Assembly (NCBI RefSeq): GCF_900089775.1
Contig: NZ_FLOB01000001.1
Location: forward strand, 310,001-374,000
Direction: 5' to 3'
Source of the DNA: Marinomonas spartinae
GTDB lineage: Bacteria; Pseudomonadota; Gammaproteobacteria; Pseudomonadales; Marinomonadaceae
Length of the DNA: 64,000 nt
Shown here piece after piece: positions 7,564-14,588 of this stretch (position 1 is its first letter; every line of letters starts with the position of its first letter). The notes below the pieces were generated by a model. It was not told where the DNA came from. It ran no database searches and saw nothing but the letters and a program-made list of their open reading frames with translations. Both the position numbers and the translations under genes were made by a program.

Positions 7564-8394
7564 ATGAAACCGACTTTGATAAATGACAAAATGGTTGCTC
7601 GGTTGCAGCACTGCGACAATGAAGTCAATAGTGATTTTAATTCGCCTGAGGAGCTGGCTGAGATGTGTGAAAAGATCGAGAGCCAAGCTAATCCAGAGCA
7701 TTCCGTTAATTTAATAAGCTTGCTTTCAAGCTATCTTAGGGCGAAGGCCATGTCACATTGGTTTCATGGGGGGGATTTAGCGACCTTTAAAAACCTTTGT
7801 TATAACATACTGAAACTGAAATACATTTGTGGGCAACCGCCATGTAATAATCCTAGGGCGCGCTCCGTTATTGGAGATCGCTTATTCTATTTGTTGTCTG
7901 ATCATGAACCCTTAATTTCATGGTTTAGTCAATTAATTTATGATTATGAAGTTGAAGTTAATCATAAAGAGTCCAGTAAAGTTAATGATGGTGCTTACTA
8001 CTCATTGCAACTTGCTTTAGCGTTGCGAGGGGATTTCGATTTGCTGGGAGAGCGGGCGGAATATTTTGTGGAAACCCCACCTAAGAATTGGGCTAAGCGT
8101 TTTTTGGTTGATAATCAGTTCTATTTAGCTTTAGCAAAAGGTGATGAGCAAGGTATGGAGGCGGCAATAAAAGAGCTGGTTACACCTAGAAGGCTTAATT
8201 ATCGAAAAGATTGGGATGAGGGGGCGTATACGCAAGGTCTAATCGGCACATCAGCGATAATATTCAGTAAGCTTGCATGGCGATATGGCTATGAGATCAT
8301 CGTAGACAGTCCTTATCTTCCGACAGAGTGGATCCCTGTAAAGCCGCTAGAGAACTATGAAGATGAGTTTGATTTCATGAAGGCATTTTCTTAA
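7564..8394 (+). CDS. Imm49-like immunity protein, copy 1
   Basis: 276-residue, mostly helical cytoplasmic protein with no signal peptide. I place it in the Imm49 immunity family because of the conserved C-terminal pattern DSPYLPTEWIPVKPLENY followed by a short acidic D-E-F-D-F-M tail, the central LALAKGDEQGME segment, and the overall length. This is recognition from memory, not a search. AAGAGG lies just upstream of the ATG. It is followed 15 bp later by a copy about 85-90 percent identical. No toxin gene is adjacent on either side, so this looks like an orphan immunity locus. Imm49 proteins are thought to neutralise polymorphic toxins delivered by contact-dependent systems; that role here is inferred. 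Confidence 0.65.
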   Translation: MKPTLINDKMVARLQHCDNEVNSDFNSPEELAEMCEKIESQANPEHSVNLISLLSSYLRAKAMSHWFHGGDLATFKNLCYNILKLKYICGQPPCNNPRARSVIGDRLFYLLSDHEPLISWFSQLIYDYEVEVNHKESSKVNDGAYYSLQLALALRGDFDLLGERAEYFVETPPKNWAKRFLVDNQFYLALAKGDEQGMEAAIKELVTPRRLNYRKDWDEGAYTQGLIGTSAIIFSKLAWRYGYEIIVDSPYLPTEWIPVKPLENYEDEFDFMKAFS

Positions 8395-8409: not shown

Positions 8410-9237
8410 ATGAAACCGACTTTGATAAATGACAAAATGGTTGCTCGGTTGCAGCACTGCGACAATAGAGTCAATAGTGATTTTAATTCGCCTGAGGAGC
8501 TGGCTGAGATGTGTGAAAAGATCGAGAGCCAAGCTAATCCAGATCATTCCGTTACTTTAATAAGCTTGCTTTCAAGTTATCTTGAAGCAAAGGCTATGTC
8601 ACATTGGTTTCATGGGGGGGATTTGGCGACCTTTAAAAACCTTTGTTATAACATTCTGAAACTGAAATACATTTCTGGGCAACCGCCATGTAATAATCCT
8701 AGGGCGCACTCCGTTATTGGAGATCGCTTATTTTATTTGTTGTCTGATCATGAACCTTTAATTTCATGGTTTAGTCAATTAATGTATGACTATGAAGTCA
8801 AATACAGTGAGCCTAGTATGGCTAATAGTGCTGGCAACTATTCGTTGCAACTTGCTTTAGCATTGCAGGGTGATATTGATTTGCTGGGAGAACGGGCAGA
8901 GTGCTTTATTGAAACCCCGCCTAAGAATTGGACAAAACGCTTTTTGGTTGATAGTCAGTTCTATTTAGCTTTAGCAAAAGGTGATGAGCAAGGGATGGAG
9001 GCGGCAATAAAAGAGCTGGTTACACCTAGAAGGCTTAATTATCGAAAAGATTGGGATGAGGGGGCGTTTACGCAAGGTCTAATCGGCACATCAGCAATAA
9101 TATACAGCAAGCTCGCATGGCGATATGGCTATGAGATCATCGTAGACAGTCCTTATCTTCCGAAAGAGTGGATCCCTGTGCAGCCGCTAGAGAACTATGA
9201 AGATGAGTTTGATTTCATGAAAGCATTTCCTATTTAG
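8410..9237 (+). CDS. Imm49-like immunity protein, copy 2
   Basis: 275-residue tandem paralogue of the preceding gene. The first 100 and last 100 residues are nearly identical. Divergence concentrates at about residues 130-170, where Y-E-V-E-V-N-H-K-E becomes Y-E-V-K-Y-S-E-P, the likely specificity-determining stretch. The repeat includes the 12 bp before the ATG, so the unit duplicated with its ribosome-binding site. The final residues are FPI instead of FS. Probably co-transcribed with copy 1. Function as for copy 1, with the caveat that no cognate toxin is visible in the window. Confidence 0.65.
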   Translation: MKPTLINDKMVARLQHCDNRVNSDFNSPEELAEMCEKIESQANPDHSVTLISLLSSYLEAKAMSHWFHGGDLATFKNLCYNILKLKYISGQPPCNNPRAHSVIGDRLFYLLSDHEPLISWFSQLMYDYEVKYSEPSMANSAGNYSLQLALALQGDIDLLGERAECFIETPPKNWTKRFLVDSQFYLALAKGDEQGMEAAIKELVTPRRLNYRKDWDEGAFTQGLIGTSAIIYSKLAWRYGYEIIVDSPYLPKEWIPVQPLENYEDEFDFMKAFPI

Positions 9238-10860: not shown

Positions 10861-12015
10861 TTAGATGGCTAAATGCGTCTGGCTGCCCTCGTTAAGCGCT
10901 AAATACACGGTATTGCGGATTTCATTGGCTAATGCGGTGGGAAGGCTTTGGCTAGGATGACGAAGCACTAAGCGTAATAAGAGATTGTCTTGGTGTTCCG
11001 CTATGCCAAGCCTTGCGATGGCGACGGGTGGAAGTGCTTGGTAGGCCGTTCGTGAGACAAGTTGAATGTCTTCTAACCATTCGGCTTGCTCTTCCAGTGC
11101 TAGACGCACTTTATCGCCAATGATGTCCATATCGATATGTTGATCGACAACGAGGGAGAGGTCCCGTCCTGTTATGGGTTGTCGAGAGACTGGCTGCCAA
11201 GGTGAGAGGGTTTGCATTTGTGTTTGCACTCTAGGCTCTGGGTCGCGTAATAAGCGAATGTCAGGAATGCCCTTGCGTAGCATAAGTACTCTATCTAATC
11301 CCAACCCCATAGCAAGGCCCGTATAGTGTTCACTAGACCAGCCATTTCGATCAAGTAAGGCGGGATCAATGTTGCCACACTCGCCTATTTCGACAAGTTC
11401 ACCCTGATCGATGTTGCCTTGTTCAATGGCATCCAGCTGCACACCGTTTTGGGTATACGGATGGGGAGAGGTGGATATTGCCACTTTATGGTTGGGTAAT
11501 AAGGTGCCCATTAATGCGGCAATACTGTCATGCAAAATCTGTTCGTCACTGGCTTGGCTTTTCGGCAGGACAATCCAGATGTCCAGTTGGTGGGGCTCGG
11601 CACTGTGCCAGCGATCAATGCAGTCGCGGCGATAGACAAGGCCATGACTTAATAATCCAAGTGACTCTGGACGATAATGGCGCCAGCTGCTTAACCAGGC
11701 GGGAACGGCGCTAGAGGTTTGCGTTCGTAGCATTAAATCTTTATTGACATAACGGCTATAGCGACTGTCTCTGGAGGCGCCATCGTCGGGATAGCCAAGG
11801 GCGTCATAGTTTTCGTAAACAGGCACTATGGGGTTGGCGTTTAGCCTTTGAATGTAACAAGACCACAGGGATTGGATGGCGGTTTCGGCCTCGCTGATGA
11901 GCTGTTGCATGGCATGAATGCCTTGCTTTGGGTCGGTTAGGTCGCGTAGGGAGAGTGCCTTAAGCAGTTGTTCGAGGGTGAGATATTCGTAGGTTAAATC
12001 GTTGTTAGTAGACAT
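10861..12015 (-). CDS. orphan PheS-like ligase with FDX-ACB domain (SrmL-like)
   Basis: 384-residue class II aminoacyl-tRNA-synthetase paralogue. The PheS-type catalytic core carries motif-2-like sequence GLVYRRDCIDRWH and motif 3 GLAMGLGLDRVLMLRKG near residue 235. A C-terminal ferredoxin-fold anticodon-binding domain follows from about 280 (ITGRDLSLVVD), as in mitochondrial PheRS and the end of PheT. It lacks the long N-terminal coiled coil of true PheS and has no pheT neighbour, so it is not the housekeeping enzyme. It resembles proteins I recall being named 'PheS-related mystery ligase SrmL'; the substrate is unknown. I chose the ATG at 12015 because GGAG lies 7 nt upstream; an in-frame ATG at 12036 exists. 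A short ORF and competing stems precede it. Confidence 0.75.
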   Translation of the reverse strand: MSTNNDLTYEYLTLEQLLKALSLRDLTDPKQGIHAMQQLISEAETAIQSLWSCYIQRLNANPIVPVYENYDALGYPDDGASRDSRYSRYVNKDLMLRTQTSSAVPAWLSSWRHYRPESLGLLSHGLVYRRDCIDRWHSAEPHQLDIWIVLPKSQASDEQILHDSIAALMGTLLPNHKVAISTSPHPYTQNGVQLDAIEQGNIDQGELVEIGECGNIDPALLDRNGWSSEHYTGLAMGLGLDRVLMLRKGIPDIRLLRDPEPRVQTQMQTLSPWQPVSRQPITGRDLSLVVDQHIDMDIIGDKVRLALEEQAEWLEDIQLVSRTAYQALPPVAIARLGIAEHQDNLLLRLVLRHPSQSLPTALANEIRNTVYLALNEGSQTHLAI

Positions 12016-12068
12016 AGTTATGCTCCATAAATCCAAGATAAAAAGTGAAAGTCGTCTTTTTTGGATTC

Positions 12069-12155
12069 CTCCGAGTCGGGACTCGGAGAGAGCTTGTCTA
12101 TGAAAGGTTATTTCAAGTAGAACAAAGCCGCCGGGTCCAGTGTAGGGACTCGGAG
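12069..12155 (-). promoter_or_regulatory. possible attenuator-like leader with competing stems
   Basis: In minus-strand RNA order, the 9-mer CTCCGAGTC occurs twice (12155-12147 inside the short ORF, and 12088-12080), followed by one complementary GACTCGGAG (12077-12069). Either copy can pair with the single complement, so two mutually exclusive stems are possible ahead of the PheS-like gene. No U-tract follows the downstream hairpin, so a simple terminator is not shown. Another hairpin lies upstream at 12225-12257. Confidence 0.4.
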
Positions 12156-12194
12156 GCGGATAAATCGATGTGGACGTGCGAGTAAATAAGTCAT
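12108..12194 (-). CDS. 28-residue leader ORF upstream of the PheS-like ligase
   Basis: Short ORF with an ATG at 12194 preceded by CTAGGA with an 8-nt spacing, ending in TAA at 12108. The peptide begins M-T-Y-L-L-A-R-P-H-R-F-I-R and ends A-L-F-Y-L-K. It is basic and contains two Phe and two Tyr. It overlaps the first of the two identical stem elements, which would let translation decide which RNA stem forms. It could be a regulatory leader peptide, a substrate of the adjacent ligase, or a chance ORF; conservation would decide. Confidence 0.35.
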   Translation of the reverse strand: MTYLLARPHRFIRLRVPTLDPAALFYLK

Positions 12195-12277
12195 GATTTT
12201 GATCCTAGCAGCTTGTCTTTTACAGAACAAGACACGCTTGAAGCGATTGCCTTGTTCCTAGCTGTCATAGATAAGAC

Positions 12278-12928
12278 CTAAACCGCATTTGGCGCTGTTG
12301 GTTCTGAGTAATCTTCTTGTTGAAGCGGATCTTGTTCTGCTTTTCCCCACTGCTTTTCCAATGGCAGTACACCTGCCCATACTGGCCAGTCGTTATCGGC
12401 AGGGTCGTCAACGGGGGGCTCAGCGCGCATTTTGACAGAAGCTTCGTCGATTTTGATTCGAACCACGCCCGTGGCTTTGATTTCCTGTTCGTTCACTGGG
12501 CGTAGTGTTTCCCAGCGGCCAGGGCTGACTTTGTCTAAGAAGAGTTTGAACTGGCGAACTTTTTCTTCTTGGTCCTCAATACGTTCTGGTACACCAAATA
12601 AGGTGACGGAACGATAGTTCACCGAATGGTGCATGGCAGAACGTGCCAATACCAAACCATCCAATAGACTGACGTTAATGCAAACTTTTTCAGGCTCGTC
12701 GATTGGTCCTTTGACATTGCGCGCTTTGGAATGGGCGTGCCAGTAGAAATAATCGCCTTCTCGCCAATGGCTGGTGGGCGTAACGAAGGCTTGGCCGTCT
12801 TTAGTTTGTCCTACATGACACATTAACGCCGCATCGATAATGTCTAGGGCTAGGTCTTTATCGTAGGAGGCGCGGTTTGGTCCACGCTTTACTCTGCTTA
12901 ATGACGTTTCTGTGAGTGACTGGCTCAT
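12278..12928 (-). CDS. pyridoxamine 5'-phosphate oxidase-like flavin-binding protein
   Basis: 216-residue split-barrel protein of the Pyridox_ox_2 group (flavin-nucleotide-binding). Supporting segments are YDKDLALDIIDAALMCHVGQ, FVTPTSHWREGDYFYWHAHSKARN and SAMHHSVNYRSVTLFG, the usual FMN-contacting order in this family. The exact reaction is unknown for most members. It is divergent from a MocR-type PLP-dependent regulator, and such pairs are common; the regulator probably controls this gene in response to a B6 or amino-compound signal. AAGGAG precedes the start. Confidence 0.83.
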   Translation of the reverse strand: MSQSLTETSLSRVKRGPNRASYDKDLALDIIDAALMCHVGQTKDGQAFVTPTSHWREGDYFYWHAHSKARNVKGPIDEPEKVCINVSLLDGLVLARSAMHHSVNYRSVTLFGVPERIEDQEEKVRQFKLFLDKVSPGRWETLRPVNEQEIKATGVVRIKIDEASVKMRAEPPVDDPADNDWPVWAGVLPLEKQWGKAEQDPLQQEDYSEPTAPNAV

Positions 12929-13034
12929 GAATTCTCTCCTTGTATCTTGTTAGATGGCTAGCTATAACAAGACTTTAGAGAAATCTGGCTTTAATAAAAA
13001 TAGCCAGAATGAAGATAAACAAGCAGGCCAGATT

Positions 13035-14588
13035 ATGAAGCACGCGGTAGCCAGTTTGCGCTTCTCTTTAAGTGAAGATGCGCCCTATTACCAACAATTG
13101 ATTGAGCAAATCCAGCACGGCATTGCATCCGGGCAATTATCTGTAAACGATAAATTACCGTCGTCGCGGACCTTGGCATTGTCCTTGGGCGTGTCTCGGA
13201 GTACGACGTCCAGAGCCTATGAACAGCTCATTGCCGAAGGGATTCTCGTGAGTGAGCAAAAGCGTGGTGTATTTGTTGCGGCGACTACGATTAGTAGCAT
13301 AGCAGCGCAATCTGTCAGGGCTACGTCGCCTATTGAGGTAGAGAAGATGGCCAATGAGGAAAAGACGGTCGAACAAGCGTGGCTAGCCTTTGACTCTGGG
13401 GCGGATGTGTCTGTCTTTCCGAGTAAAGAGTGGGCCGCTAGTATGCGCCGCAGCTGGTTAAAACCGGATTGGAGAGTATTAAATGGTGATTATGAATCAG
13501 GTTTGCCAGCGCTGAAGGAAGCGATCAGGGACTACCTTTATCAAGTGCGAGGTTTGCTATGTGATGGTGAGCAAGTGTTCTTGACAGCGGGTAATCGCGA
13601 TGCATTGTTACAGCTGCAACATGTTTTCGTCAGCGTTGCGAAAAAAGCCAAATGGTGGGTTGAAGATCCCACTTATTTGCCGATAATCGAGACACTTTCA
13701 CAACAAGGAAACGTTGGTCTTCTGCCCATGGACGATGACGGCGCCTGTTTGCAAACTGCAGACAATTCAAGCTTCTCTCCAGATAATATCGCAGTGCTGA
13801 CACCCGGCCGACAGTATCCTTTAGGTATAACAATGAGCTCGCCAAGACGGCAAGAGTGGATTCAGCGTTTACAAGATCCCTCCTCTTCTTGGTGGTTAGT
13901 GGAAGATGATTATGACAATGAATTTGTCTATCAGGGTCGAAGTAATGTACCGCTCATGCAAACCGCGAGTTTGCATGAGGTAGCAAAGGATCGTTTGTTT
14001 TTTATTGGTAGTTTTTCCAAGGTGCTTTTTCGCGGTTTGCGCTTGGGTTTTATTATCGCTCCTTTGAAACATGCTAAACAATTGGCAAGGAGTCAAAAGT
14101 TGCTAGGTTCTTCCGTGTCTTTACCCATACAACCTGCCGTAGCGGACTTTATGATTCAGGGGAACTTTGGCCGACATATGAATCGTATGCGCCGCTACTA
14201 TCGCTTAAAGCGAGATGCCTTGCTGGCACTGTTGGAGGCGTGTCTAGTTCCTTGGTTTGTATGGCAACGGCCGAGTGGTGGCATGCATGTTTTGATTGAA
14301 TTGGCACCGTGTTGGTTTGATGAACTGCGTGGCCCCGTCGAAACGATGGAAGCAGACAAGTCTAAGGGCCTGAAGCCGCCGCTGTGGGATGAGGTCATCG
14401 CGGCGAGGATGAAAGAGCAAGGCCTCCTGTTATCGACCTTGTCGAGCCATTTTGTAAAAAAGCCTAGCCGACAGGGCTTTATTCTCGGGTTTAGCAGTAC
14501 TCCAGAAGACGTGATGCGTGTTTTGGTACAGGCACTGGCTGAGGTTTGTAGAGAACTTTGTCCTAGAGATAGGCATATTAGAGTGTAA
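13035..14588 (+). CDS. MocR/PdxR-type regulator (GntR HTH fused to aminotransferase domain)
   Basis: 517-residue MocR-family regulator. An N-terminal winged HTH (about 10-78, LPSSRTLALSLGVSRSTTSRAYEQL) joins a class I aminotransferase-like domain from about 105, with the PLP lysine expected in FFIGSFSKVLFRGLRLGF. It binds PLP and controls B6 or amino acid genes in characterised cases. The ATG at 12954 is also in frame and would give 544 residues, but that leaves only 25 bp to the divergent gene. The ATG at 13035 (MKHAVASLRF) gives a normal MocR N-terminus and room for a promoter, so I chose it. Likely target: the divergent flavin-binding gene. Confidence 0.83.
   Translation: MKHAVASLRFSLSEDAPYYQQLIEQIQHGIASGQLSVNDKLPSSRTLALSLGVSRSTTSRAYEQLIAEGILVSEQKRGVFVAATTISSIAAQSVRATSPIEVEKMANEEKTVEQAWLAFDSGADVSVFPSKEWAASMRRSWLKPDWRVLNGDYESGLPALKEAIRDYLYQVRGLLCDGEQVFLTAGNRDALLQLQHVFVSVAKKAKWWVEDPTYLPIIETLSQQGNVGLLPMDDDGACLQTADNSSFSPDNIAVLTPGRQYPLGITMSSPRRQEWIQRLQDPSSSWWLVEDDYDNEFVYQGRSNVPLMQTASLHEVAKDRLFFIGSFSKVLFRGLRLGFIIAPLKHAKQLARSQKLLGSSVSLPIQPAVADFMIQGNFGRHMNRMRRYYRLKRDALLALLEACLVPWFVWQRPSGGMHVLIELAPCWFDELRGPVETMEADKSKGLKPPLWDEVIAARMKEQGLLLSTLSSHFVKKPSRQGFILGFSSTPEDVMRVLVQALAEVCRELCPRDRHIRV

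Follow-up and report, generated by a model that had tools for sequence, protein, structure and literature searches.

A conserved leader with a single phenylalanine codon precedes the PheS-related ligase gene srmL of Marinomonas and may act as a ribosome-mediated attenuator

The window analyzed here, by which we mean the whole 64,000-nucleotide stretch of Marinomonas spartinae DNA, carries on its minus strand srmL, a gene for a PheS-related ligase, preceded by a short leader. The 179 bases from the leader ATG to srmL contain a 28-codon ORF (12194-12108) with the translation MTYLLARPHRFIRLRVPTLDPAALFYLK followed by a stop codon, two copies of CTCCGAGTC (12155-12147 and 12088-12080), and one copy of GACTCGGAG (12077-12069). 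The features of the leader and gene, in order of transcription apart from nested elements, are as follows.

12225-12230, minus strand: possible -35 element TTGTTC, lying 17 bases ahead of the -10-like box; putative, from reading of the sequence, and without a match in the strict scan.
12202-12210, minus strand: extended -10-like box, TGCTAGGAT, at which strong Marinomonas conservation starts in an eight-genome alignment.
12108-12194, minus strand: predicted leader ORF of 28 codons, open in all eight Marinomonas leaders.
12161-12167, minus strand: CGATTTA, with the Arg-Phe codons (CGA, TTT) and the proposed control codon; unchanged in all but one of the 14 bacterial srmL leaders.
12146-12155, minus strand: arm 1, first copy of CTCCGAGTCC, from the pairing search and folds.
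12128-12138, minus strand: arm 2, GGACCCGGCGG, from folds; its partner is arm 1 or arm 3.
12093-12126, minus strand: small hairpin whose loop contains the stop codon, from the minimum-energy fold.
12089-12095, minus strand: AAGCTCT directly before arm 3, in folds a possible partner of the srmL Shine-Dalgarno sequence (GGAGC).
12079-12088, minus strand: arm 3, second copy of CTCCGAGTCC, from the pairing search, folds and duplex energies.
12069-12077, minus strand: arm 4, GACTCGGAG, which forms a duplex of -17.5 kcal/mol with arm 3.
12061-12067, minus strand: AATCCAA, left arm of the hairpin adjoining the Shine-Dalgarno sequence, kept in 8/8 genomes and paired in folds.
12030-12036, minus strand: TTGGATT, right arm of the same hairpin, kept in 8/8.
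12023-12026, minus strand: srmL Shine-Dalgarno sequence GGAG, from alignment and folds.
10861-12015, minus strand: srmL, 384 amino acids, PheS-related ligase (NF051887), by profile score and a fold like that of single-chain mitochondrial PheRS.

The region upstream of srmL (12278-14588) carries a PNPOx-like gene and, divergently oriented, a gene for a MocR-type regulator; ORFs similar to this pair adjoin srmL in one other Marinomonas genome (G067), and one similar to the PNPOx-like gene does so in two (G017 and G025). Elsewhere the window holds two tandem, very similar ORFs (7564-8394 and 8410-9237), the first of which matches the Imm49 immunity protein. A strict promoter and terminator scan of the window returned neither, and Rfam gave no match in the window at the gathering cut-off and none up to an E value of 5 in 12000-12300; a known RNA family (T-box, riboswitch or other Rfam leader) was accordingly rejected as the identity of the leader, no covariance model matching it. 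A repeat or mobile element was also rejected, the genome containing one full copy of the leader and one 23-base match, and plasmids and phages searched with the leader at an E value of 0.01 gave no match.

A pairing search recovered a 10-bp pairing of 12147-12156 with 12068-12077 and a further 9-bp pairing, both perfect, which confirms the report of the first-pass annotation that the ORF is accompanied by two identical elements sharing one downstream partner. The 262-base region as a whole has a more stable fold than 200 of 200 shuffles (z -4.19). An additional arm had been overlooked, however: either copy of CTCCGAGTCC can serve as a pairing partner for GGACCCGG (12138-12131). With this arm 2 (GGAC.CGG, inside the leader ORF) added, the leader has the classical 1:2, 2:3 and 3:4 arms; arm 2 is the shared partner of arms 1 and 3, which explains their likeness, and arm 3 is the shared partner of arms 2 and 4, which accounts for the resemblance between those two. 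The wiring drawn earlier, in which the two identical elements vie for the one downstream partner, must be revised on this basis: the deciding contest would lie between 2:3 (duplex energy -10.7 kcal/mol) and 3:4, and a ribosome at the Phe codon would mask arm 1.

Within Marinomonas, srmL is present in 8 of 48 genomes and the leader stands directly upstream of it in all eight. We compared the stretch from TGCTAG to the srmL ATG between the window's genome (G000) and four less closely related Marinomonas genomes (G025, G017, G066 and G067) and found 82-85% identity, above the 65-67% of the srmL coding sequence and the 28-61% of the 150 bases upstream of the leader in the same comparisons. In two genomes, G066 and G061, the sequence ahead of TGCTAG shows no relationship to that of the others, indicating that the conserved unit starts at this box. 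The leader ATG follows 7 bases after the box; if the box serves as a -10 element, the transcript would start at or adjoining this ATG. The AGGA earlier described as a good ribosome-binding site overlaps the TGCTAG(G/T)AT box and is replaced by AGTA in five of the eight genomes, so that it is not a conserved ribosome-binding site. Among the five distinct Marinomonas leader ORFs, 13 codons change their amino acid and 2 vary silently, so that conservation falls mostly on the RNA; the Arg-Phe pair at codons 9-10 (start = 0) is invariant. One diverged copy of the leader was also encountered (G018, L011 1470-1602), in a genome without srmL; it is decayed, has 76-78% identity, and has lost CGATTTA and the 3:4 hairpin, and the ORF directly behind it resembles what we take to be a GH8 cellulase. 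When the 48 genomes were searched with this copy, E values of 1.7e-10 or better were obtained in the eight srmL genomes and G018, and the 40 genomes without srmL yielded one strong match, the decayed copy itself, and short, weak ones (best E value 1.9e-4). Thirteen weak DNA matches elsewhere in the genus were aligned and set aside, as they resembled chance.

Beyond the genus srmL is scattered: it scores over the cut-off in 3 of 369 genomes of the class (the window's own included), is found at an E value of 1e-70 in 1 of 397 genomes of the phylum (the window's own), and occurs in four plasmid records, two of them fragments, and in one phage record; further viral scans gave no new contig. Twenty loci were considered: eight from Marinomonas, one each from Reinekea and Rhizobium tropici, two from genomes that share a genus (G152 and G275), two from plasmids (one of Azotobacter, one of Glutamicibacter), and six from phage or viral contigs 181-635 kb long; two corynebacterial fragments were excluded. 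The first-pass annotation had named conservation next to srmL in other genomes as a check on its reading, and the leader was found at 8/8 Marinomonas srmL genes, while six other bacterial ones share its short ORF and Arg-Phe codons. An Arg-Phe codon pair is present in 14 of 14 bacterial leaders, as CGATTTA in 13 and as CGATTTT in Glutamicibacter, the G275 leader being represented by a 27-base match near a contig end. A short ORF with this pair precedes srmL in Reinekea, Rhizobium, G152, Azotobacter and Glutamicibacter (and partly, at the contig edge, in G275), and it is open in all five of these leaders, which are readable in full. The encoded peptides are MTKLPAQYITRFISPREPNGSGGK in Reinekea, MAIHRAQRFSRSRVPVHRDAAACARR in G152, MMNNRSHRFSRPWVRSDQDRAARA in Azotobacter and MSWQQRFSSPRPGNGRGVLDVRL in Glutamicibacter, with 35 residues ending in ARRFTCGQPDGLARGF in Rhizobium; across all lineages the C-termini vary (LK, GGK, ARR, RA, VRL, RGF, MV, KE). 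The Arg codon CGA is conserved as strongly as the Phe codon, and our model offers no explanation for it.

The phage loci differ among themselves. Two of the six have Phe-rich leaders, MNTNTTFNFFFSHKMV and MNMLNKNNFSFFMFDFFGTQARGAILLKE, with Phe runs and without the Arg-Phe motif, each followed by a terminator-like hairpin; at the other four, no leader ORF was seen in the 350 bases upstream of srmL. At two of these four, srmL lies in an array of tRNA genes and has tRNA-Phe as a near neighbor: on L100, tRNA-Phe occurs 212 bases ahead of the matched srmL stretch and again 165 bases behind it, and on L103 it occurs 120 bases ahead, with tRNA-Val between. Several other neighborhoods were also noted. 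On the viral contig L101, srmL stands behind an ORF (upstream of 2498) whose end resembles histidyl-tRNA synthetase by eye; on the Glutamicibacter plasmid (L094 3320-6101) it adjoins a gene for a chloramphenicol exporter of the Cmx/CmrA family; and a corynebacterial plasmid has an srmL fragment near erm(X) and tet(65).

The four-arm layout recurs with different stems. By eye, arm 1 begins 10-12 bases after the start of CGA in Marinomonas, Reinekea, G152, Azotobacter and Glutamicibacter, its sequence being different each time, and its pairing with a downstream arm was computed in all of these except Reinekea, where pairing with arm 4 was seen by eye and includes one G-U. Arm 1 is CTCCCGGGTTCC in G152, where the 3:4 hairpin AACGCCCCCGGGTTCC-GGAACCCGGGGGCGTT is followed by a T-run; it is GCCCCTGGGT in Azotobacter, where the 3:4 hairpin ATGCCCCTGG...CCAGGGGCAT again precedes a T-run and the scan gives an overlapping, shorter stem; and it is CCCTCGGG in Reinekea, with AAACCCCCGG...CCGGGGGTTT as the 3:4 hairpin. 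In Glutamicibacter and Rhizobium the four arms are not all assignable with confidence.

We then asked how the position of a ribosome would affect these structures, using leaders cut before arm 4, masking a ribosome codon by codon and measuring the pairing of arm 3 with the ORF (2:3). Ten leaders were folded: four from Marinomonas (G000, G025, G066, G067) and those of Reinekea, Rhizobium, G152, Azotobacter and the phages L098 and L102. A ribosome-dependent switch was clear in six, three of them Marinomonas; between no ribosome and a ribosome at Phe, the 2:3 probability rose from 0.09 to 0.72 in G025, 0.07 to 0.72 in G066, 0.05 to 0.71 in G067, 0.06 to 0.77 in Reinekea, 0.00 to 0.74 in G152 and 0.02 to 0.62 in L098. 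The window's own leader showed a weaker change (0.44 to 0.71), and a switch was absent in Azotobacter (0.95 with and without ribosome), L102 (0.71 to 0.78) and Rhizobium (0.36 to 0.39), as it was in Glutamicibacter, folded separately (0.74 without and 0.67 with ribosome). With the ribosome at the stop codon, the probability was at most 0.07 in five of the clear-switch leaders, the exception being G152 at 0.42; there, codons 1, 5 and 6, before Phe, also gave 0.55-0.64 and positions near the stop about 0.4-0.5, so the response of this leader is not specific to Phe.

As a null, nine ORFs were each recoded synonymously 200 times. The change seen in the actual leader was reached by 28 of the 200 for G000, 2 for G025, 0 for G067, 9 for Reinekea, 0 for G152 and 4 for L098, and among non-switching leaders by 109 for Azotobacter, 74 for L102 and 36 for Rhizobium. 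The null is weaker for stalled pairing alone, which 4 to 34 of 200 recodings reached in the five supporting leaders, compared with 0-9 for the change (G000 10, G025 4, G067 5, Reinekea 21, G152 15, L098 34; Azotobacter 7, L102 19, Rhizobium 180). All 32 runs, made on eight leaders (five Marinomonas, Reinekea, G152 and L098, the four non-switching ones being left out) with four footprint sizes each, placed the Phe codon within the switch window; this switch window covers several codons, of which Phe is the only one kept in all. Theory holds that sensitivity needs many control codons (PMC1183508); at the switch position of bacterial srmL leaders a single Phe codon is conserved, and Phe runs occur at two of the six phage loci. 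The attenuation logic proposed by the first-pass annotation thus holds in part, in that the layout recurs at distant srmL genes with other stems and some of the lineages are predicted to fold according to ribosome position; the wiring proposed here differs from the one it drew.

The output step probably differs between lineages. Terminator-like sites were found by scan in G152, Azotobacter (overlapping arm 4), Rhizobium and the phages L098 and L102, and a hairpin with a T-run that the scan missed is visible by eye in Reinekea; the scan found none in the Marinomonas window or in Glutamicibacter. Given that an intrinsic terminator was looked for in Marinomonas and not found, we do not class this leader as a transcription attenuator, and as it has no U-tract, it probably acts on translation. 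In the ribosome-free fold of six Marinomonas leaders, the accessibility of the srmL Shine-Dalgarno sequence was 0.05-0.07, its partner in the minimum-energy structure being AAGCTC before arm 3 in five of the six and other bases in the leader of the window itself; for the Glutamicibacter Shine-Dalgarno sequence, GGAGAC, the partner is GTCTCCGCAGG. At equilibrium 3:4 still wins (0.98) in Marinomonas with a ribosome at Phe, and the Shine-Dalgarno sequence stays mostly closed (0.05-0.45); any switch must therefore be kinetic, with 2:3 acting during RNA synthesis.

The enzyme itself belongs to a family that NCBI calls a mystery ligase. SrmL from the window scores 451 bits against NF051887 ("PheS-related mystery ligase", NCBIfam; cut-off 300) in the TTG-started frame 10861-12036, G152 scores 517 and ten others 387-524, so that all 12 are over the cut-off. 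A profile of these 12 has human mitochondrial PheRS as its best PDB match (E value 2.5e-36), and a structure predicted from 10 sequences (mean pLDDT 83.5, pTM 0.68) places seven human mitochondrial PheRS entries first in both Foldseek (TM 0.58-0.64) and VIA-align (Z 27-29, residues 5-383). The predicted chain combines a catalytic core with a C-terminal ferredoxin-fold anticodon-binding domain; bacterial PheS chains match the catalytic part, about residues 31-272. The rmsd to mitochondrial PheRS structures is 5 or more, at 20-26% identity, so that domain placement differs or is poorly predicted. FxF is the Phe pocket motif of PheRS; all 12 SrmL have HxYT aligned to the FxFT of mitochondrial PheRS, and FxF is absent, so phenylalanine may not be the substrate. 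Against TIGR00469 (cut-off 258 bits), SrmL of the window reaches 94 bits and those listed at most 158. Because both this score and the FxF motif are features that define PheRS, and SrmL falls below the one and lacks the other, we do not class it as a PheRS. The genome has a separate pheT with a PheS-like match directly before it; just before the PheS-like gene (L113, about 338-385), a hairpin with a T-rich tail is visible by eye, perhaps a housekeeping PheRS attenuator. Among the matches listed from the open-licence PMC literature, no paper concerned SrmL or a bacterial single-chain PheRS, and the text of a 2022 review of duplicated synthetases makes no mention of PheRS or PheS (PMC9437257).

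Attenuation by a ribosome at the Phe codon is the best reading that joins the conservation, the arms, the ORFs and the fold, and we consider it fairly likely that the leader is a Phe-tRNA-sensing, ribosome-mediated attenuator of SrmL, a stand-by PheRS-like enzyme. Under this model, srmL would be held off until translation slows at the Phe codon. In the default state 1:2 and 3:4 would be paired, with the 3:4 hairpin and U-tract stopping transcription in Reinekea, G152, Azotobacter and the two phages, and with 3:4 in Marinomonas forming part of the fold that hides the srmL Shine-Dalgarno sequence. Were charged tRNA-Phe scarce, the ribosome would wait with UUU in its A site and cover arm 1; 2:3 could then form on the emerging RNA, 3:4 would be delayed, and srmL would be expressed. 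SrmL might in this way serve as a single-chain, PheRS-like stand-by for when housekeeping PheST falls short. The putative link between SrmL and phenylalanine is drawn from the leader, the phage leaders, the tRNA-Phe neighbors and the fold.

One may postulate alternatively that the ribosome switch is real and its trigger something other than low Phe-tRNA, with a drug or nascent peptide stalling the ribosome at Arg-Phe, by analogy with the leaders of resistance genes, and SrmL countering the drug. The single Phe codon in the switch window would suit such a trigger, and so would the exact preservation of CGATTTA in 13 of 14 bacterial leaders, even those of GC-rich hosts, the chloramphenicol exporter gene beside srmL and the srmL piece that shares a plasmid with erm(X) and tet(65); the plasmid neighborhood is weak evidence, however, the residues preceding Arg-Phe are not conserved, and two phage leaders have Phe runs without the motif, and we regard this explanation as improbable. 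Still less probable, in our view, is a protein- or metabolite-binding leader in which the hairpins matter and the ORF is incidental: nucleotides are indeed better conserved than the peptide in Marinomonas, but Rfam found no match in the window, and ORFs that place Phe at the switch position are found again alongside stems of other sequence. That the basic peptide itself is what matters, as a substrate of the ligase (a suggestion of the first-pass annotation) or its partner, as for a tRNA-dependent peptide ligase, is hardly credible, for although an ORF adjoins the ligase gene at 16 of 20 loci, the C-termini vary from one lineage to another, amino-acid-changing codons outnumber silent ones 13 to 2 in Marinomonas, and no ORF was seen in 350 upstream bases at 4 of 20 loci.

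If the leader is a Phe-tRNA-sensing attenuator, it offers the mystery ligase a testable function, since switch-on by Phe limitation would make SrmL part of phenylalanine charging. Lineages ranging from Proteobacteria to an actinobacterial plasmid would then have retained a synthetase attenuator centered on one control codon, its stems and output (transcription stop or hidden Shine-Dalgarno sequence) being rebuilt between lineages, and large phages would carry SrmL either downstream of a classical Phe-rich leader or as a neighbor of tRNA-Phe. A broader and more doubtful proposal is that SrmL is a mobile, inhibitor-tolerant, single-chain second PheRS of bacteria, plasmids and large phages, with the leader as a one-codon sensor of Phe-tRNA failure; were this true, its scattered spread would point to natural PheRS inhibitors selecting for SrmL.

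Parts of this arrangement have precedents. Candidate attenuators with a leader peptide and alternative hairpins stand before the synthetase genes leuS and trpS of Actinobacteria (PMC1262725); unlike srmL, these concern other amino acids, and the trp leaders described there carry repeated control codons. The trpL transcript of Sinorhizobium meliloti is leaderless and begins with the leader-ORF ATG (PMC7298713), and by eye the ATG in Marinomonas, Reinekea, Rhizobium and Glutamicibacter similarly follows 7 bases after a -10-like box; unlike the srmL leaders, for which the transcript start is a prediction, trpL has consecutive Trp codons and a terminator. SrmL itself resembles the single-chain mitochondrial PheRS, its best PDB match by sequence and fold, in joining a core and a C-terminal ferredoxin-fold domain in one chain, and differs from it in its low identity (20-26%), its 94 bits against a cut-off of 258 and its HxYT in place of FxFT. 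The E. coli pheST leader peptide contains several Phe codons, whereas in bacterial srmL leaders a lone conserved Phe codon adjoins CGA, and the Marinomonas leader is without a conserved ribosome-binding site and a U-tract. Like the pheST attenuator, for which tRNA-Phe-dependent attenuation is documented (PMC4082710), the srmL leader stands before a gene for a PheRS-like enzyme, and the two Phe-rich phage srmL leaders are closer to pheST than the bacterial srmL leaders are.
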